A stretch of 64,000 nucleotides of DNA from Glycomyces arizonensis DSM 44726. GTDB taxonomy: Bacteria > Actinomycetota > Actinomycetes > Mycobacteriales > Micromonosporaceae. The translations under genes and the position numbers were made by a program. Positions 24,517 to 33,613 of this stretch are shown here, piece by piece (the first letter of the stretch is position 1; every line of letters starts with the position of its first letter). The notes beneath the pieces were generated by a model that was not told the DNA's origin, made no database searches, and saw only the letters and a program-made list of their open reading frames with translations. Location of the stretch: NCBI RefSeq assembly GCF_000482705.1, contig NZ_AXWO01000003.1:62001-126000 (forward strand), given 5' to 3'.

Positions 24517-24552
24517 GGAGCGCCGGGTCCGACACCCCCTTTGGAGACCGCC

Positions 24553-25620
24553 ATGACCGAGGCCATGTGGATCGAGCTGATCCGCGTCCTGCCCACGCTC
24601 ATATGGCTCGGGTTCGCCGTCGCCGCCCTCGTGGTCGCCCGCCGCGTCCTCACCCGCGAATCCCACCGCATAGCCAGGGTCGAGACCCCGTTCGTCTCGG
24701 TGGAGCTCGCCCGGGAGGCCATCGAGCTGGCGTCCCGCAGCCGGGCGGAGGACCCCGACGCCGCCGTCACGGCCCCGCCGTCGTCGAGCGATCCGCGCCC
24801 GGCTGACGGGGTTTCACAGCGGGGCATCTTTATAAGCGGTGACACCCACACCGCTGCCATAGGTTCCATCGATAGCGTATCCATCCAAGGCAGGTCACGT
24901 CCGCCGAAAGACCCGGACTCGGCCACCGCCGACATGGAGGACGACCCCGACGAGAGAGCGCCGGTCGAGACCGAGGCGCCACCCGCCGAGGAGACCCCGC
25001 CGCAGCGCATGTACCCGCCGGTCCCACCCGAGCAGCGCTTCCCGGTGCTGAGCGACCCGTACCACTCCACCACCGAGCCCGTGCCCGAGCTCCCCCCGAC
25101 CGACCCCCGGCCGTCCTACCGGACCCGCCCCTCGCTGCCCGGCCCCGCCGAGTCCCAGCGCGGGCTCAGGGCCGCCACGCGGCTCGCACTCTCCACCGAC
25201 CTGCTCCAAGGCGGCGCGATCCTGTGGGTCGACGACCACCACGAGTGGAACGAGTCCCTGGTGCGGCTCTTCCGCACCGCCGGAATCAAGGTCGACACCG
25301 TCGCCTCCACCGAAGAGGCCATGCGCGCCATGAGGACCGCCTCCTACGACCTCGTCATCACCGACATGCGCCGCGACAACGAGCCCGCTGGCGCCTCGGC
25401 GGGCATGACGCTGCTCGACCACATGGTGAGCGCCGGGATCCCCACGCCCGGGATCTTCTTCAGCGGTTCGAACGGGACCGCCGCCGCCGTCCACCCGCGC
25501 GCCGTCTGCGCCACCAGCAGCCCCGAGGAACTGGTGAACCAGGTGATCGACGTCGTCGGGCAGCGCCGCCACCAGCAAGGCGAGGGAGCCTCGCGTCGGC
25601 TCCTGTGGGGACAGCGGTGA
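24553..25620 (+). CDS. membrane-anchored protein with atypical receiver-like domain
   Basis: Not a recognised family in full. The 355-residue protein has an N-terminal transmembrane helix (about residues 8-30), a short basic stretch, a long Pro/Glu/Asp-rich linker (about 55-210), and a C-terminal receiver-like fold: GAILWVDDHHEWNESLVRLFRTAGI (D227, D228), YDLVITDMRRD (D271), GMTLLDHMVSAGIPTPGIFFSGS. The Asp positions are kept, but the conserved Thr/Ser-Lys switch of ordinary response regulators is not evident; instead there is an FFSGSN segment. No output domain follows. ATG at 24553 has GGAG upstream. It sits between the symporter/LytTR locus and two ABC exporters; partner unknown. Confidence 0.7.
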   Translation: MTEAMWIELIRVLPTLIWLGFAVAALVVARRVLTRESHRIARVETPFVSVELAREAIELASRSRAEDPDAAVTAPPSSSDPRPADGVSQRGIFISGDTHTAAIGSIDSVSIQGRSRPPKDPDSATADMEDDPDERAPVETEAPPAEETPPQRMYPPVPPEQRFPVLSDPYHSTTEPVPELPPTDPRPSYRTRPSLPGPAESQRGLRAATRLALSTDLLQGGAILWVDDHHEWNESLVRLFRTAGIKVDTVASTEEAMRAMRTASYDLVITDMRRDNEPAGASAGMTLLDHMVSAGIPTPGIFFSGSNGTAAAVHPRAVCATSSPEELVNQVIDVVGQRRHQQGEGASRRLLWGQR

Positions 25621-25675
25621 CGAGCGGCGGTTAAACGATTGCCGATACGGTCGCGCCGCCGTTACCGTTTGGCGA

Positions 25676-27415
25676 GTGAACCCCTTGCGAGCCCCTGACC
25701 TCCCCGTCGCCGATCCACTCTGGCCGCACGGGGCGAAGCCGAAAGCCTCGCCGACGCCGCCGCCGTCCACCCCGTGGCGCCTGTTCTGGTGGCTCGCCAC
25801 CCGCCGCAAAGCCCTCGCCGCCAGCGTCTGGATCTCCGCGGTCTTCTCGCTCGGCCTCGTCCCGGTCATGCCGATCTTCCTCACCGGCGCCGTCGACGAC
25901 GGCATCACGCGGCACGACTGGGGCGCGCTGGCCGCCTGGGTCGGCGCGCTCGTCGCCGCCGGATCGGTCGTCGCCGTCAGCATCGTCGTCCACCACCGCA
26001 TGACCGTGTGGTGGCGCCAAGACGCCTCCTACCGCGCCCAGCAGCTCACCGTCGCCAAGGTCGGCCGCCTCGGCGCCCGCCTGCGCGCCCACGCCACCAC
26101 CGGCGACGTCGTCAGCGTCGGCATCACCGACATGCGCGCCATCGGCCGCTCCATCGAGGCGCTCGCCCCCACCGTCGGGTGCGCCGGAGGGATCATCGCC
26201 GTCGCCGTCCTGCTGTTCACCACGTCGGTCTCGCTGGGGCTGGCGGTCTTCATCGGGGTCATCGCCGTCGCCGTCCTCACCGGGCCGCTGCTGGGCCGCC
26301 TCCAGCGCCGTTACCGCTCCTACCGCGAGCACGTCGGCGCCATCACCACCCGCTCCTCCGACATCGTCGCCGGGCTCCGGGTGCTGCGCGGCGTCGGCGG
26401 CGAGGACGCCTTCAACGAGTCCTACCGCCGCGACTCCCAGGACCTCAAGCGGGCCGGGCTGCGCATCGCCGCGCCCGGCGCCTGGATCGACACGCTCGCC
26501 GCCGGGGCGCCCCTCATCCTCCTCGGCGCGGTCGTGTGGCAGTCGGCCCGCCTCGCCGCCTCAGGCGAGATCACCGTCGGCCAGATGGTCGCCGCCTACG
26601 CCTACACCGCCGCCCTGCTCCAGCCGGTCCGCTGGCTCATGGGCACGGCCATGACCCTCATGCAGGGACACGTCGCCGCCGCCAAGATCTGCGAACTGCT
26701 GAACCTCCCCGAACCGCCGCGGCGCACCGACACCCGCCCCGGGCCGGACACCGGCGCCGAACTCGCCGACCCCGACGCCGGGCTGCGCCTGAAGCCGGGC
26801 CTCACCGCCATCGCCGCCGCCGACCCCCGGTCCGCCACCGGCCTGTTCGACCGGCTCGCCGGGCTCGCGCCCGCCGAGACCGCCTTCGGCGGCGTCCCGG
26901 TGTCCGACATGGACCCCGAGGAGCTGCGGCGCCGCGTGCTCGTCGCCGACCACGACGCCTACCTGTACGCCGGGACTCTCGAAACCGTGCTCGCCGGGGC
27001 GGTGGGGGAGGACCGCGTCGCCGAGGCCGTCACCGCCGCCTGCGCCGACGACGTCGTCGACGCCCTCCCCGACGGGATCGCCACCGACCTCGGCAACCAG
27101 GCCCGCACCGTCTCCGGCGGCCAGCGCCAGCGCCTCCGGCTCGCCCGCGCCCTCGCCGCCGAGCCCGAAGTGCTGCTCCTCCACGAGCCCACCTCGGCGG
27201 TCGACTCCCACACCGAATCGCGCATCGTCGAACGCGTCGCCGCCCTCCGCAAGGGCCTGACCACCGCCGTCGCCTCCACCTCGCCGCTGTGGCTCGGCCG
27301 CGCCGACACCGTCGCGTTCGTCCAGGACGGCAAGGTCGCCGCCACCGGCACCCACGCCCACCTCATGGCCGCAGCGCCCGACTACCGCGCGCTCGTCGCC
27401 AGGGAGCTGACATGA
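25676..27415 (+). CDS. ABC exporter half-transporter, first pair, subunit A (degenerate ATP-binding motifs)
   Basis: This 579-residue protein has a six-helix exporter membrane domain (about residues 30-320) and a C-terminal nucleotide-binding domain. The signature VSGGQRQRLRLARAL (S480-Q483) is intact. Walker A is missing: residues about 374-390 read LTAIAAADPRSATG with no GKS/T. The Q-loop Gln is replaced (VADHDAYL), the Walker B Asp is His (LLLHEP, H503), and the switch His is absent (VASTSPLWLG). Walker B Glu504 and the D-loop remain. The stop overlaps subunit B by 4 bp. GTG start has no clear Shine-Dalgarno. Heterodimer with the next gene is inferred; substrate unknown. Confidence 0.88.
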   Translation: MNPLRAPDLPVADPLWPHGAKPKASPTPPPSTPWRLFWWLATRRKALAASVWISAVFSLGLVPVMPIFLTGAVDDGITRHDWGALAAWVGALVAAGSVVAVSIVVHHRMTVWWRQDASYRAQQLTVAKVGRLGARLRAHATTGDVVSVGITDMRAIGRSIEALAPTVGCAGGIIAVAVLLFTTSVSLGLAVFIGVIAVAVLTGPLLGRLQRRYRSYREHVGAITTRSSDIVAGLRVLRGVGGEDAFNESYRRDSQDLKRAGLRIAAPGAWIDTLAAGAPLILLGAVVWQSARLAASGEITVGQMVAAYAYTAALLQPVRWLMGTAMTLMQGHVAAAKICELLNLPEPPRRTDTRPGPDTGAELADPDAGLRLKPGLTAIAAADPRSATGLFDRLAGLAPAETAFGGVPVSDMDPEELRRRVLVADHDAYLYAGTLETVLAGAVGEDRVAEAVTAACADDVVDALPDGIATDLGNQARTVSGGQRQRLRLARALAAEPEVLLLHEPTSAVDSHTESRIVERVAALRKGLTTAVASTSPLWLGRADTVAFVQDGKVAATGTHAHLMAAAPDYRALVARELT

Positions 27416-29169
27416 CCACCGAACTGCCCGTCGCGGGGACCCGCCAGGTGCGGGCCGCCTTCGTCTCCCTGCTCGGCGCCGAACGCCGCCGCGTCCTCCT
27501 CGGCGTCGCCCTCCACGTCGCCGCCGCCGGAGCGGGCGCCGCCGCGCCGCTGCTCATGGGCCGCATGATCGACGACCTCACCGCCGGGGCCACGATCGAC
27601 GACATGGACCGCCTCGCGCTCGGCCTGGCCGCCGCCATCGCCGCCGCGCTCGTCCTCACCTGGGCGGCCGGGTACACCGTCGACCGCGTCGGCGAGCTGC
27701 TCTCGGCCCGCCTGCGGGAGGACTTCATCGCCCGCTGCCTCAGATTGCCCCCGCACCTGGCCGAGCAGGCCGGCTCGGGCGACCTCATGACCCGCTCCAC
27801 CATCGACGTCCCCGAGGCCGGGAACCTCGTGCGCGACACCGCCCCCTGGGCGGCCACCGCCGTCCTCACCTCACTTGTCTACATCGGAGCGATGGCGTGG
27901 GCGAGCCCGCTGCTGGCGCTCTGCGTCCTGCTCGCCGCGCCGCCGATCGCCGTGGGCGCCCGCTGGTACCTGGGGCGCGCCCGCGCCGGGTACCTCGCCG
28001 AGCGCCGCGCCGAGTCCGCCATGGGCGACGCCGTGGCCGCCACCGCCGACGGCGCCCGCACCGCCGAGCTCTACGGCCTCGCGCCCAATCGCCGCCGCGT
28101 CGCCCACGACGCCATCTCCCGCCACTGGGGCGCCACCCGGTACACGCTCTACCTGCGCAGCATGTACTTCCTGAGCCTGGAGAGCTCCTACGTGCTGCCC
28201 ACCGCCGGCGTCCTCGTGTTCGGCGCGGCCCTGTACTTCGGCGACGCGATCACCATCGGCGCGGTCGCCTCCTGCGCGGTCCTGTCCCGCCAGGCGGTCG
28301 CCCCGCTCAACAACCTGCTCATGATGGTCGAACGCGTCCAGCGCGGCTTCGCCTCGCTCGCCCGCGTCGAAGGCGTCGGCCAGGCCCTCGCCGACGAGCC
28401 GCGCGCCTCCGAGGCCGAACCGTCCGGCGGCGAGGTCGCCCTGCGCGGCGTCCGCTTCGCCTACCCGGGCGGCCGCGACGTCCTCCACGGCGTCGACCTC
28501 ACCGTCCCGGTCGGCGAGCGCCTCGCCGTCGTCGGCCCCTCGGGCGCCGGGAAGTCCACGCTGGCGCGTCTCATCGCCGGGATCGACCCGCCGGGCTCCG
28601 GCGCCGTCGAGGTCGGCGGCGCCGACATCGCCGCGATGCCCCTCGACCGGCGCCGCCGCCACGTCACCCTCGTCACCCAAGAGCACCACGTGTTCACCGC
28701 GACGCTGCGCGAGAACCTCGCCCTGGCCAGGCCGGGCGCGTCCGACGCCGAACTCGAGGCGGCGCTCGACGCGGTCGGCGCCGCCTGGGCCACGGCCCTG
28801 CCGGAAGGGCTCGACACCGAGCTGGGCGGCACCGCCGACGAGCTCGACGCCGCCTCGGCGCAGCAGATCGCGCTGGCCCGCATCGTCCTGGCCGACCCCG
28901 ACGTGGTGATCCTCGACGAGGCCACCGCCATGCTCGACCCGCGCGCCGCCCGCGACACCGAACGCGCCCTCGCCGCCGTCCTCGACGGCCGCACTGTGAT
29001 AGGCATCGCGCACCGGCTCCACACCGCCCATGACGCCGACCGCATCGCCGTCGTCGAGGACGGCCGCGTCACCGAGCTCGGCAGCCACGACCAGCTCCTC
29101 GACCGCGGCGGCGCCTACGCGCGGCTGTGGCACGGCTGGCAGGGGAGCGGGTCTCCGCCCGCGGCTTAA
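27412..29169 (+). CDS. ABC exporter half-transporter, first pair, subunit B (intact Walker motifs, degenerate signature)
   Basis: This 585-residue protein has a six-helix membrane domain and a nucleotide-binding domain. Walker A GPSGAGKST (G375-T383), Q-loop VTLVTQEHHVF, Walker B VVILDEATAMLDP (E503) and switch IAHRLHT (H534) are intact, but the LSGGQ position reads LDAASAQQIAL (about 478-487), so the signature is lost. The losses exactly complement subunit A: Walker A, Walker B and His from B plus the signature from A make one complete ATP site, and the other site lacks both halves. ATG at 27412 overlaps the subunit A stop. Confidence 0.9.
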   Translation: MTTELPVAGTRQVRAAFVSLLGAERRRVLLGVALHVAAAGAGAAAPLLMGRMIDDLTAGATIDDMDRLALGLAAAIAAALVLTWAAGYTVDRVGELLSARLREDFIARCLRLPPHLAEQAGSGDLMTRSTIDVPEAGNLVRDTAPWAATAVLTSLVYIGAMAWASPLLALCVLLAAPPIAVGARWYLGRARAGYLAERRAESAMGDAVAATADGARTAELYGLAPNRRRVAHDAISRHWGATRYTLYLRSMYFLSLESSYVLPTAGVLVFGAALYFGDAITIGAVASCAVLSRQAVAPLNNLLMMVERVQRGFASLARVEGVGQALADEPRASEAEPSGGEVALRGVRFAYPGGRDVLHGVDLTVPVGERLAVVGPSGAGKSTLARLIAGIDPPGSGAVEVGGADIAAMPLDRRRRHVTLVTQEHHVFTATLRENLALARPGASDAELEAALDAVGAAWATALPEGLDTELGGTADELDAASAQQIALARIVLADPDVVILDEATAMLDPRAARDTERALAAVLDGRTVIGIAHRLHTAHDADRIAVVEDGRVTELGSHDQLLDRGGAYARLWHGWQGSGSPPAA

Positions 29170-29209
29170 TCGTTTGTGGGATGTCGGAGGCGTACTTTAC
29201 GGTCGTCAA

Positions 29210-30979
29210 GTGAGGTTCCTCCGCGCTCCCGATCTCCCACTCGAAGACCCCGAATCCCCGGACGGTTCGAGCGGTGTTCCCACGCCGAACGGAGTGAGGC
29301 GTACATTGGCACGGCGCCCGCCGCCGACGACGCCGTGGCGGTACTTCCTGTGGCTCGCCACCCGCCGCAAGGGGCTCATGGCCGCCGCGCTGGTGACCTC
29401 CGCGATCGCCCTCGGCGGGCTGCCGATCCTGCCGTACTTCCTCACCGGCGCGGTCGACAACGGCCTCGCCGAGCGCGACTGGGGCGCCCTCGCCGCCTGG
29501 ACCGGCGGCCTCGTCGGCGCCGGGTTCGTCTCCGCCGCCGCGATCGTGTGGTCGCACCGCCTCACCGTGTACTGGCGCATGGACGCCGCCTACCGGACCC
29601 TCCAGCTCGCCACCCGCAAGGTCAACGGCCTCGGCGACGAGCTGCGCCGCAAGGTCACCACCGGGCAGGTCGTCTCCGTCGGCGCCACCGACGTCCGCCG
29701 CATCGCCGAGGCCGTCGACGGCCTCTCGCCGCTCGTCGGCTGCGCCGTGGGCCTCATCGCCGTCGGCCTCCTGCTGTTCAACACCTCGGTCACCCTCGGG
29801 CTGACGATCTTCATCGGCGTGTTCGCCGTCGGCCTCATCACCGGGCCGCTGCTCACGCGGCTCCAGGCCCGCCAGCAGGCCTACCGCGACCGCATCGGCG
29901 ACATCACCGACCGCTCCTCCGACATCGTCTCGGGCCTGCGCGTCCTGCGCGGCATCGGCGGCGAGCGCCGCTTCAGCGCCTCCTACCGCGTCGACTCCCA
30001 GGAGCTGCGCAAGGCCGGATACAAGGTCGCCGGGCCCCAGGCCTGGCTCAATGCCCTCGGCGAGGGCACGCCCGCGATCCTCCTCGGCGTCGTCGTCTGG
30101 ATCGCCGGGCGCCAGGTCGCCTCCGGCCAGATCACGCCCGGCCAGATGGTCGCCGCGTTCGGCTACACCAGCGCCATGCTGCTGCCCGTCCACTGGCTCA
30201 TCGGCACCTCCTACCGCATCATCGAGGGCCGCGTGGCCTGCGGCAAGGTCTGCAAGCTCCTCAATGTGCCCTCCCGGCCCGCCCCCGAGCACCCACAGGC
30301 GGGGCCCGAGGCCGGCGCCGACCTCCACGACCCCGAATCGGGGCTCACCGTCGGCGGCGGGGAGCTGATCGCCGTCGCCTCCGCCGAGTCCGGCCAGGTC
30401 GCCGACCTGTTCGACCGGCTCGGCGGCTACACCGACGCCGAGGCCCGCTTCGGCGGCGTCCCGGTGTCCGACATGGACCGCGACGAGCTGCGGCGTCGCG
30501 TCCTCGTCGCCGAGCACGACGCCTACCTGTTCGCCGGGACGGTCGCCGCCGTCATCGGCGCGCGTGAGGGCGCCGACCGCGTCGCCAAGGCCGTCGACGC
30601 CGCCAGCGCCGGTGACGTCGTCGAGGCCCTCCCCGACGGCCTCGACACCGAACTCGACAACCAGGTGAGGACCCTCTCGGGCGGGCAGCGCCAGCGGCTG
30701 CGACTCGCCCGCGCCCTCGCCGCCGACACCGAGATCCTGCTGCTGCACGAGCCGACCTCGGCCGTGGACTCCCACACCGAGGCCCGCATCGCAGGCCGGC
30801 TCGCGGCCGCCCGCACCGGGAAGGCCACCGCCGTCGCCACCACCTCGCCGCTGTGGCTCGGCCGCGCCGACAAGGTCGCGTTCGTCCAGAACGGCAAGGT
30901 CGTCGCCGTCGGCACCCACCACGAACTGGACGAGCAGCGGCCCGACTACCGCGCGCTCGTCACCCGGGAGGCCGAATGA
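29210..30979 (+). CDS. ABC exporter half-transporter, second pair, subunit A (degenerate ATP-binding motifs)
   Basis: This 589-residue paralogue of the gene at 25676 starts similarly (VRFLRAPDLPLEDP versus VNPLRAPDLPVADP), which supports GTG at 29210 over longer frames. Signature LSGGQRQRLRLARAL (L489-Q493) is intact. Walker A is again missing (GELIAVASAESGQVADLF), the Q-loop Gln is replaced (VAEHDAYL), Walker B reads LLLHEPTSAVDS and the switch His is absent (VATTSPLWLG). The same set of losses in both A subunits shows the state is inherited, not an error. No clear Shine-Dalgarno; TACTTT 13 bp upstream hints at a leaderless start. Stop overlaps subunit B (ATGA). Confidence 0.88.
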   Translation: MRFLRAPDLPLEDPESPDGSSGVPTPNGVRRTLARRPPPTTPWRYFLWLATRRKGLMAAALVTSAIALGGLPILPYFLTGAVDNGLAERDWGALAAWTGGLVGAGFVSAAAIVWSHRLTVYWRMDAAYRTLQLATRKVNGLGDELRRKVTTGQVVSVGATDVRRIAEAVDGLSPLVGCAVGLIAVGLLLFNTSVTLGLTIFIGVFAVGLITGPLLTRLQARQQAYRDRIGDITDRSSDIVSGLRVLRGIGGERRFSASYRVDSQELRKAGYKVAGPQAWLNALGEGTPAILLGVVVWIAGRQVASGQITPGQMVAAFGYTSAMLLPVHWLIGTSYRIIEGRVACGKVCKLLNVPSRPAPEHPQAGPEAGADLHDPESGLTVGGGELIAVASAESGQVADLFDRLGGYTDAEARFGGVPVSDMDRDELRRRVLVAEHDAYLFAGTVAAVIGAREGADRVAKAVDAASAGDVVEALPDGLDTELDNQVRTLSGGQRQRLRLARALAADTEILLLHEPTSAVDSHTEARIAGRLAAARTGKATAVATTSPLWLGRADKVAFVQNGKVVAVGTHHELDEQRPDYRALVTREAE

Positions 30980-32865
30980 GCACCGCCAGCGTGAGCACCA
31001 GAACCGCGCCGCCGATGAAGAGCGGACGGCTCCCGGTCGCGGGGCGCGCCGAGACGAGGCGCGCGTTCGCGCAGCTGCTGCTGTCCGAGAAGGGCCGCGT
31101 CGCCGGGGCCATCGGCCTCCACCTCGTGGCCGCCGTCGCCGCCGCGGTCGCCCCGCTGCTGCTCGGCGAGATCATCGACGGCCTCGCCGCGGGCGGCGGC
31201 GTCGAGGGCGTCGACCGGCTCGCCGTCGGCATCGCGGTCTCCTGCGTCGCCGTCGTCGTCTTCACCTGGGCCGGGACGTACGTCGCCCACCGGCTCGGCG
31301 AGCGGCTCTCGGCGCGCATGCGGGAGCAGTTCGTCGACCGGTGCCTGCGCCTGCCGATGCCCGTCGTCGAGCGCGCCGGCTCGGGCGACCTCATGACCCG
31401 CTCCTCGGCCGACGTCCCCGAGGCCGGGGCCCTGTTCCGCGACGGCGTCCCGCAGGTCACCGTCTCGATCCTCAAGGTCCTCGTGTTCCTCGGCGCGATG
31501 TTCTGGGTCAGCCCCCTGCTGGGACTGTGCATGCTGGTGGCCGTCCCGCCGATCGCCACCGGCACCCGCTGGTACCTCAAGCGCGCCAGGCACGGGTATC
31601 TCCGCGAGCGCGAGACCGAGTCCGAGATCGGCGACACCATCGCCGCCTCCGCCGACGGCGCCCGCACCACCGAGGCCTACCGGCTCGAAGACCAGCGCCG
31701 CCGCGCCGGTGACGACACCGTCGCCGCGTCGTGGGGCGCGGTCCGGTACACGCTGTTCCTGCGGACCGTGTTCTTCCCGTTCCTGGACGGCACCTATGCG
31801 CTCCCGACCGCCGCGGTCCTGCTCGTGGGCGGCGCCTTCTACTTCGACGGCGCCGTCAGCCTCGGCATGGTCGCCAGCTGCGCCGTCCTGACCCGCCAGA
31901 TCATGTTCCCGCTGGACCACATCCTGATGTGGATCGAGCGCGTCCAGCGCGGCGCCGCCGCCCTGGCCCGCATCGAAGGCGTCGCCGACGCCGAAGGCTC
32001 CGAGGACGGCGCCACCGCCGAGCGGCCCGCCGACGGGACCGTGGAGCTGCGCGGCGTCCGCTACGCCTACCCGACCGGCGGCGACGTCCTCCACGGCGTG
32101 AGCCTCCACGTCCCCGCCGGAGAGCGCTTCGCCGTCGTCGGGCCCTCGGGGGCGGGCAAGTCCACGCTGGCGCGGCTCGTGTCCGGCGCGGACGTCCCCC
32201 GCGAGGGCACCGTCCACATCGGCGGCGTCGACGTCGCCGCGCTTCCGCTGGACGTGCGGCGCGGGCGCGTCACGCTGGTGACCCAGGAGCACCACGTGTT
32301 CACGGCGACCCTGCGCGACAACCTCGTCCTCGCCAAGGACGAGGCGGGCGACGACGAGCTGGAGTCCGCGTTGGCCGCCGTCGGCGCCGACTGGGCCTTC
32401 GACCTGCCCGAGGGGCTCGACACGCGGCTGGGCGGCACCGCCAGGGAACTCGACGCGGCCTCGGCGCAGCAGATCGCGCTGGCGCGGATCATCCTGGCCG
32501 ACCCCGACGTGGTGATCCTCGACGAGGCGACGGCGATGCTCGACCCGCGCGCCGCCCGCGACACCGAGCGGGCGCTGGGCGCGGTCCTGGAGGGCCGCAC
32601 CGTCATCGCGATCGCGCACCGGCTCCACACCGCTCATGACGCCGACCGCATCGCCGTCGTCGAGCAGGGAGTCGTGGCCGAACTGGGCAGCCACGACGAG
32701 CTCATCGCCCGCGACGGCCACTATGCGGATCTGTGGAGGGCCTGGCATGGGGAGCCTGTGAGCCATGAATTGGCTCAGGATGGGGAACCGGTGAGCCATG
32801 AATTGGCTCAGGATGCCGAGCCCGTGGGCCATGAGCTGGGCGAGGACGCCGCGACCGCCCGCTGA
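30976..32865 (+). CDS. ABC exporter half-transporter, second pair, subunit B, with repeated C-terminal tail
   Basis: This 629-residue paralogue of the gene at 27412 has an exporter membrane domain plus a nucleotide-binding domain. Walker A GPSGAGKST (G389-T397, Lys395), Q-loop VTLVTQEHHVF, Walker B VVILDEATAMLDP and IAHRLHT are intact; the signature position again reads LDAASAQQIAL. The C-terminus is extended by three copies of an 11-residue unit (GEPVSHELAQD twice, then AEPVGHELGED), absent in the first-pair B subunit. ATG at 30976 overlaps the A stop. A terminator follows 8 bp after the stop. Confidence 0.9.
   Translation: MSTASVSTRTAPPMKSGRLPVAGRAETRRAFAQLLLSEKGRVAGAIGLHLVAAVAAAVAPLLLGEIIDGLAAGGGVEGVDRLAVGIAVSCVAVVVFTWAGTYVAHRLGERLSARMREQFVDRCLRLPMPVVERAGSGDLMTRSSADVPEAGALFRDGVPQVTVSILKVLVFLGAMFWVSPLLGLCMLVAVPPIATGTRWYLKRARHGYLRERETESEIGDTIAASADGARTTEAYRLEDQRRRAGDDTVAASWGAVRYTLFLRTVFFPFLDGTYALPTAAVLLVGGAFYFDGAVSLGMVASCAVLTRQIMFPLDHILMWIERVQRGAAALARIEGVADAEGSEDGATAERPADGTVELRGVRYAYPTGGDVLHGVSLHVPAGERFAVVGPSGAGKSTLARLVSGADVPREGTVHIGGVDVAALPLDVRRGRVTLVTQEHHVFTATLRDNLVLAKDEAGDDELESALAAVGADWAFDLPEGLDTRLGGTARELDAASAQQIALARIILADPDVVILDEATAMLDPRAARDTERALGAVLEGRTVIAIAHRLHTAHDADRIAVVEQGVVAELGSHDELIARDGHYADLWRAWHGEPVSHELAQDGEPVSHELAQDAEPVGHELGEDAATAR
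32749..32847 (+). repeat. 33-bp tandem repeat, three in-frame copies in an ABC exporter gene
   Basis: Units at 32749-32781, 32782-32814 and 32815-32847. Units 1 and 2 differ at only two bases, unit 3 is diverged. Each encodes 11 residues, so the frame is kept. This points to recent expansion of the protein tail. Confidence 0.9.
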
Positions 32866-33613
32866 GACGAAATCGGGCCCCGAGCTTTCGCCCGGGGCCC
32901 GTCACTGGCTCGAGAACACCACCACAAGTCGGAACACCCACCGACTCGTTATTAGCAAGGAAACAGAAAGGAAACCAGGAAACCCGTTCCGAACCAGTGA
33001 TAGCAATCATAGACCACGATCGGAGCATTTTGAAGGGGCCTCTGGTCCCCGTTTCAGCATGCGGTCTTCGCGCTGGTCGACGGCCCGAGACCCGTGAGCG
33101 CGGCACTGCTGCGCGATAGCCGGCGGGGCCTTGCCTCCCAACGGAACCGGTGGTCGAGGGACCGGGACATCGGTTGCACACCGATCGGTAACAGTTCGGT
33201 ATCGCACGTTGCGCGGGCCACGTTTTCGCGGCTCGAAGCGGTGAGCCCAAAACCACATAATTCGCGAACCGCGATGAAACGCCCGTGTCGTCTGAGGCGG
33301 ATGGGGCCGGTCTCGGCTCTCCCGTCACATCGGTCACAGCGAGTGAGGGTTGCGCCGTGCCGCGGCGCCCTCCGCAGCGGCCCCGATCCGACCGTGCCGC
33401 CGTACGGCGCACCGTTTCCGCCGCGCGGCGCGGCGGCTCGCCGCCTTCCGCTCGGCGGCGAGCCCGGGGCCGCTTCCGCCGCCGCGCCGCATTGCGGCTC
33501 CGCCGCTGCGCAACGCGGCTCCTCCGCGACCAGGGCCGCCGACCGACTCCGCCGCGCACGACCTAGACTCGATAAGTCTTCCCGCAGCTAGAAACCGTTA
33601 GGAAACACCTGTC
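32866..33613. other. 748-bp gene-free stretch between ABC exporters and gatC
   Basis: Starts with a strong terminator (32874-32901), then about 150 bp of lower-GC sequence (about 32930-33030), and ends with a very GC-rich block (about 33350-33560) of short inverted GCCGCC/GGCGGC-type words. Frames through the last block encode Arg/Ala/Pro-rich sequence with no plausible start site. The gatC promoter presumably lies near 33560-33600. No RNA gene is recognisable. Confidence 0.45.
32874..32901 (+). terminator. terminator after the ABC exporter cluster
   Basis: Eight-bp stem CGGGCCCC (32874-32881) with its complement at 32894-32901 and a loop containing CTTTCG; located 9 bp after the last exporter stop. 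Confidence 0.75.

Follow-up and report, generated by a model that had tools for sequence, protein, structure and literature searches.

Paired actinobacterial ABC half-exporters in which one subunit lacks the Walker A motif and its partner the signature motif

What becomes of the second ATP site of an ATP-binding cassette (ABC) exporter when one subunit has no Walker A motif and its partner has no signature motif? The question is raised by a stretch of 64,000 nucleotides (here called the window) from Glycomyces arizonensis DSM 44726 (contig NZ_AXWO01000003.1, positions 62,001 to 126,000 of the forward strand), in which four plus-strand genes form two tandem half-exporter modules, A1-B1 followed by A2-B2. 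In both modules the start codon of the B gene lies within the stop codon of the A gene in an ATGA overlap.

25676..27415, plus strand: A1, half-exporter with a transmembrane domain (TMD, PF00664) and a nucleotide-binding domain (NBD, PF00005) without Walker A; GTG start
27412..29169, plus strand: B1, half-exporter with intact Walker A, Walker B, Q-loop and switch His and a degenerate signature; ATG start
29210..30979, plus strand: A2, paralogue of A1, NBD without Walker A; GTG start
30976..32865, plus strand: B2, paralogue of B1; ATG start

The start of A2 was set at 29210 by its match to A1, the mechanical open reading frame beginning at 29030. A1 and A2 are 59% identical and B1 and B2 64% identical. 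All four proteins match both PF00664 and PF00005 above the gathering score in the order TMD to NBD, which is the arrangement of the ABCB-like (type I exporter) fold, an ABC_membrane TMD followed by an ABC NBD on one chain. In A1 and A2, PF00005 is covered only in its later part, which in A1 corresponds to profile positions 85-137.

A sequence-only reading of this DNA had proposed that the A subunits lack Walker A, the Q-loop Gln, the Walker B Asp (replaced by His) and the switch His but keep LSGGQ, while the B subunits keep everything except the signature. We read the motifs in all four proteins as follows.

26816..26842, plus strand: former Walker A of A1, AADPRSATG
26951..26953, plus strand: Q-loop position of A1, His
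27110..27124, plus strand: retained signature of A1, VSGGQ
27173..27187, plus strand: Walker B of A1, LLLHE, with Asp changed to His and Glu kept
27278..27289, plus strand: switch loop of A1, TSPL, with Thr aligned to the switch His
28534..28560, plus strand: Walker A of B1, GPSGAGKST
28843..28857, plus strand: degenerate signature of B1, LDAAS
30380..30406, plus strand: former Walker A of A2, SAESGQVAD
30674..30688, plus strand: retained signature of A2, LSGGQ
30737..30751, plus strand: Walker B of A2, LLLHE
32140..32166, plus strand: Walker A of B2, GPSGAGKST
32449..32463, plus strand: degenerate signature of B2, LDAAS

A2 also has His at the position of the Q-loop Gln and reads TSPL at the switch loop, and the segment ahead of the former Walker A is likewise shorter in the A subunits than in the B subunits. 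B1 and B2 share the remaining motifs TQEHH, ILDE and AHRL, and in both LDAAS is followed by AQQ. The proposed motif losses were thus borne out on both sides; LSGGQ is correct for A2 but not for A1, whose signature is VSGGQ, SGGQ being common to the two. It follows from these motif states, as had been proposed, that the site formed by the Walker motifs of B and the signature of A is complete and that the opposite site lacks both halves.

To see how widely this state is shared, we searched named genomes with a profile from an alignment of 12 A proteins and used the best 80 of 545 confirmed places. The scan of these relatives relied on peptide patterns from the D-loop and the signature and not from Walker A, which left Walker A unconstrained and the signature less so. 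In 80/80 the matched NBD had no GxxxxGK[ST], no Lys of that motif and no switch His, and SGG was present in 80/80. The genera were Glycomyces, Micromonospora, Streptomyces, Nocardioides, Kribbella, Actinoplanes, Nocardia and others, and the record titles were all actinobacterial. The homologue check suggested for the A subunits thus came out as the sequence-only reading had expected: many actinobacteria share the Walker A-less state, and it is not special to the Glycomyces locus. Four open frames together with 80/80 like relatives rule out a pseudogene or sequencing error, the latter having already been discounted in that reading.

Further genome scans gave 116 more loci, counting repeats of one and the same gene, of which 74 lacked both Walker A and the switch His. 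Walker A was present in 41 (34 with the switch His and 7 without), all relatives outside the clade of A subunits described below, and one locus had no NBD. A second profile scan, run on a class sample of 197 genomes, found A NBDs without Walker A in 30/30 best loci. These 30 formed part of a motif check of 50 further loci that were not in the tree, the other 20 being regions of middle or borderline score: 14 were A subunits without Walker A, 5 were Walker A-positive (ordinary degenerate or canonical) and 1 was a fragment without NBD. In the class sample, 146/197 genomes matched at 1e-80, 54 of the 146 having their best match in the weaker range from 1e-80 to 1e-99, and a hand count by score put an A member in 92/197, the motifs having been read for only part of the 92. 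Two genomes departed from this division by score: G244, among the stronger, is Walker A-positive, and G267, among the weaker, is an A member. Beyond the class, the 30 best loci from the 100 genomes of a phylum sample showed A members in four genomes (G140, G154, G167 of family f60, and G198). Within Glycomyces, an A2-type gene was found in 13/13 genomes searched, the present one included, and an A1-type gene in 5. At the 17 Glycomyces loci outside the window that were compared, A1-type loci were 69-79% identical to A1 and 62-66% to A2, and A2-type loci 74-80% identical to A2 and 57-60% to A1. Two Glycomyces loci, L028 and L030, encode divergent A members whose Walker B reads ALDPL and whose switch loop reads DSA/SSA; L030 also has SAGQ.

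For column counts we assembled 154 A rows (repeats and window proteins included), selected for no Walker A, SGG or SAG, the D-loop Asp and no switch His, so that the number 154 is no test of these selecting motifs. An importer NBD (L061) and fragments in L057, L059 and L161 were left out although they, too, lack Walker A. The Walker B Asp column held V in 77 rows, H in 31, D in 17 and other residues in 29; the Q-loop column was Q in 4/154, and Lys at the former Walker A column was found in 0/154.

Trees placed the losses in time. In a tree built from the TMD only (337 sequences, 338 columns), 147 A tips formed one clade containing no Walker A-positive tip, with a support of 0.87, and in the NBD tree of 337 sequences the A clade had a support of 0.997. 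L061, an importer NBD labelled as A, had fallen outside the A clade in the first tree; once the importer NBDs L061 and L046, which have no exporter TMD, were removed, support was 1.0 in both trees. Within the clade we counted 0 changes for Walker A, 0 for the switch His, 4 for the Walker B Asp and 2 for the Q-loop Gln. SGG was present in 146/147 members, the exception being L030 with SAG, and no Walker A-positive intermediate in the A clade was found in a tree of the first 196 loci. The losses had been thought to predate the duplication at this locus; being common to a clade of 147 A subunits, they are older by far.

We then compared conservation on the two sides, taking the A set from the tree and the B set from gene position; this replaced an earlier count that had been partly chosen by motif, and the results agree. 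Among 109 nonredundant A-clade NBDs, the S, G and G of the signature were present in 109/109, its Q in 108 and the following Q-R in 109, and the D-loop Asp and last Glu were present in 109/109, while the nine former Walker A columns all lay between the 43rd and the 88th percentile of entropy. Pro occurred in the former P-loop in 83/108, which would fit a helix cap. Among 37 nonredundant B partners, drawn by position from 79 with a complete NBD, the Walker A Gly, Lys and Thr, the Q-loop Gln, the Walker B DE and the switch His were present in 37/37, and three signature columns lay at the 74th to 83rd percentile of entropy. This reciprocal conservation is what a one-site machine predicts.

The genes are also consistently paired. 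A same-strand NBD gene lay downstream within 3.2 kb in 147/154 A rows; the other seven were the two window proteins, which had been given singly, and five loci (L108, L152, L161, L166 and the second copy in L032) where the available stretch stops too early to show a partner NBD. Walker A was present in 147/147 of the downstream partners and SGGQ in 0/131 with a readable signature, so that the refuting condition named for the B homologues, LSGGQ in most of them, was not observed.

Structure prediction bore on the loop itself. The model of A1 (75 sequences; predicted local distance difference test [pLDDT] score, 91.8) has a strand at 375-381 and a helix at 384-394, with a confidence of 96-98 in this block, and the model of B1 (39 sequences; pLDDT, 86.4) has a strand at 370-374, a loop at 375-380 and a helix at 381-388, with a block confidence of 86-93. 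In the A1 model, two residues separate strand and helix, and the phosphate loop is gone. The overall fold of the model is that of an ABCB-like type I exporter. By Z score its nearest match was TmrAB chain B (28.3; root mean square deviation, 5.4 over 545 aligned residues), followed by MsRv1273c/72c chain A, CydDC and TM287, tied at 27.5 each; Foldseek's own ranking opened with TM287/288 chains of both kinds. No solved structure of the A family was evident among the 60 best rows, and the A-family profile put ABCB1 first.

How far does this depart from known asymmetric exporters? Like the A-B pairs, TM287/288, TmrAB, BmrCD, MsRv1273c/72c and TAP consist of two half-transporters with one consensus and one degenerate site, and by sequence A and B, too, have one consensus and one altered composite site. 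TAP, TM287/288 and BmrCD reportedly keep Walker A, however, and in the TM287/288 kind both NBDs have this motif and the catalytic Glu of one is replaced, whereas Walker A is absent from A and both A1 and A2 keep the Glu. Pdr5 is also said to retain more of the P-loop than the A subunits do. In MsRv1273c/72c, as described in PMC12038006, the polarity is the same, the good signature coming from the subunit whose Walker B is degenerate (Asp497, Gln528); but MsRv1273c keeps an ATP-binding Walker A and has its Walker B Glu and switch His replaced, while in A Walker A is gone and the Glu is kept. ATP is clamped at both sites of that transporter, and a role for it as the glue of the degenerate site has been proposed there. 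Passages of PMC8421411 term the PDR family (Pdr5) the most extreme case, with all but one motif of the inactive site of Pdr5 substituted. In this family of fungi and plants nearly all motifs of one site deviate, including the Walker A Lys (Cys in Pdr5) and the switch His as in A, and the signature of the partner domain is lost. Pdr5 is a single eukaryotic chain with the NBD before the TMD, whereas A-B is actinobacterial, encoded by two genes and ordered TMD before NBD; the single-chain NBD-TMD order that defines the PDR family is not found here. In Pdr5, moreover, Walker A is altered at the Lys and ATP still binds, while in A the loop itself is erased. The description of these pairs as an extreme state overlooked a precedent in kind, the fungal PDR family. 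To judge from the sequences, the A-B family goes beyond TM287/288, TAP, BmrCD and Pdr5 in site loss because the loop itself is gone. In the open-access PMC literature we found no description of Walker A-less subunits of the A kind; StrV/StrW and RamA/RamB were guesses made during that search and led nowhere.

Closer comparisons come from actinobacteria. Walker A-positive subunits with Asp in place of the Walker B Glu (L015-L018, L020, L131, L133-L137 and L139) resemble A in having SGGQ, HTE after the D-loop and a downstream partner; unlike A, they have intact Walker A and switch His, and the TMD tree places them outside the A clade. Because such subunits occur in the same phylum, catalysis at one site may have been lost before the P-loop, a suggestion short of proof. 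Some Streptomyces carry, upstream of the Walker A-less pair, a second degenerate pair that is Walker A-positive, giving four half-transporters in a row; the second pair is adjacent in L037, L059 and L068 and about 3 kb off in L099, and one half is visible in L141 and L142. The partner signature ISAGQ was read for the similar Streptomyces pairs in L037, L059, L068 and L099 and not for the subunits with Asp listed above.

Taken together, these results suggest that each A-B pair probably forms an obligate heterodimer, an ABC exporter in which just one composite ATP site works. B would give this site Walker A, Walker B, the Q-loop and the switch His, and A its SGGQ signature and D-loop. The A NBD would be a pseudo-NBD that no longer binds ATP and is retained to donate the signature and to serve as dimer partner. 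Protein contacts instead of trapped ATP would most likely keep the opposite interface closed or partly closed, and a pump held in this way would cycle on one ATP. The broader claim, of an old, widespread actinobacterial exporter clade that uses one ATP per NBD dimer, has permanently lost the P-loop of one NBD and has a protein-held interface at a site that is never occupied, is one toward which we lean slightly.

Several observations weigh against these conclusions. The scan of the 80 relatives demanded a D-loop or GQRQRL pattern, so that SGG was partly selected, and the profiles used for searching derive from members that lack Walker A. The Walker B Asp is still present in 17/147 A members, and the Walker B Glu position is Glu or Asp in 154/154 A rows (E in 125, D in 29); a pure signature donor would not need this residue for chemistry, and it may have a structural role. 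The TMD distances of A and B are correlated (r = 0.94 over 130 pairs, reached in 0/500 permutations), but this mostly reflects shared species history, and linked inheritance alone would give the same. Finally, according to the passages of PMC8421411 cited above, the inactive site of Pdr5 holds ATP despite its changes, and motif loss alone is therefore no proof of an empty site.

This last point leads to the most serious rival, in which the second site still binds ATP noncanonically, through B residues near the lost signature and the Glu of A, and ATP acts as glue as in MsRv1273c/72c or Pdr5. Besides Pdr5 itself, the invariant Glu/Asp and the strongly conserved D-loop of A speak for it, as do the QQ and LxR that B keeps past the lost signature in 37/37 partners. 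Yet no GxxxxGK motif and no Lys at its column occurs in the 154 rows, the modeled A1 helix starts two residues past the strand with the preceding stretch shortened, and the P-loop of Pdr5 is reportedly the more complete, so that we regard this explanation as unlikely. We give considerably less credence to the idea that A and B make up not an exporter but a regulatory or ATP-gated complex in the membrane (akin to a channel or sensor, as in CFTR or SUR): strong asymmetry is known from CFTR and reportedly from SUR, and the flanks of 80 loci held no conserved biosynthetic neighbor indicating a cargo, but all four proteins have the exporter TMD PF00664, and the A1 model lies nearest to exporters. 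That the A subunits are decaying, with B acting alone or with another partner, is hardly credible: the former Walker A region varies as under relaxed selection, but SGG persists in 146/147 clade members, A and B are linked wherever the stretch is long enough, every Glycomyces genome searched has an A2-type gene, and a homodimer of signature-less B would have no signature at all.

Promoter-like elements lie just ahead of both A genes, and a hairpin follows B2.

25631..25668, plus strand: promoter-like element TTAAACGATTGCCG-N18-TACCGT, 7 bases before the GTG of A1, similar to elements before other Glycomyces A genes
29166..29203, plus strand: promoter-like element TTAATCGTTTGTGG-N18-TACGGT, 6 bases before the GTG of A2, on the same basis
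32874..32901: hairpin after B2, terminator-like on the minus strand

We scanned upstream of 24 Glycomyces loci, recognizing the start in 19 (20 rows including repeats) and in none of L007, L008, L011, L026 and L034. The pattern TTAAnnGnTTGCCG fitted 17/20 rows, the deviants being A2 of the window with TTGTGG, L002 with TTGCCT and L013 with TAAA for TTAA, and TAnnnT stood 6-7 bases ahead of the GTG in 20/20. A looser pattern had 2 matches in the window and 0 in 100 shuffles. Across 15 Glycomyces genomes, the strict pattern (TTAAnCGnTTGCCG-N18-TACnnT) had 14 matches in 11 genomes and none in 4; 13/14 directly precede an A gene, the fourteenth, in G352, being a pattern match only, and the reversed pattern had 0 matches. 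Most modules thus seem to have a promoter of their own, probably a leaderless one, and we infer a leaderless start for A1. The hairpin possibly marks the end of the operon, although one was found against a shuffle mean of 1.0, which is no evidence alone.

Directly upstream of A1 (24541-25620) is a protein whose long N-terminal part has no Pfam match and is followed by a response regulator receiver domain, and GatA/GatB-like genes lie downstream of the modules. Clustering the flanks of the 80 loci gave, besides A, B and antisense shadows, commonest clusters at no more than 11/80, judged by eye to be housekeeping, so that neither these flanks nor the window neighbors held a hint of cargo from conserved biosynthetic genes. 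The C-terminal tail of B2 (32752-32862) carries three imperfect 11-residue repeats (EPVSHELAQDG, EPVSHELAQDA and EPVGHELGEDA) that are absent from B1. A1 homologues known from annotation and match alone also occur on Streptomyces and Arthrobacter plasmids (H6-H9), annotated as ABC transporter ATP-binding protein; of nine plasmid records matching A1, classed by match and not by motif, four bear the name ATP-binding protein and five are unnamed there.

The role of the degenerate ATP site is described as an open question in the parts of the review PMC7756269 that treat it. If the one-ATP mechanism holds, the second nucleotide, thought to be the glue in degenerate exporters, would be dispensable. 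These subunits would then constitute a natural family whose degenerate site has no usual loop with which to hold ATP, in which the role of that site could be tested without mutants, and they illustrate that a subunit can be annotated as an ATP-binding protein although its family has no P-loop.

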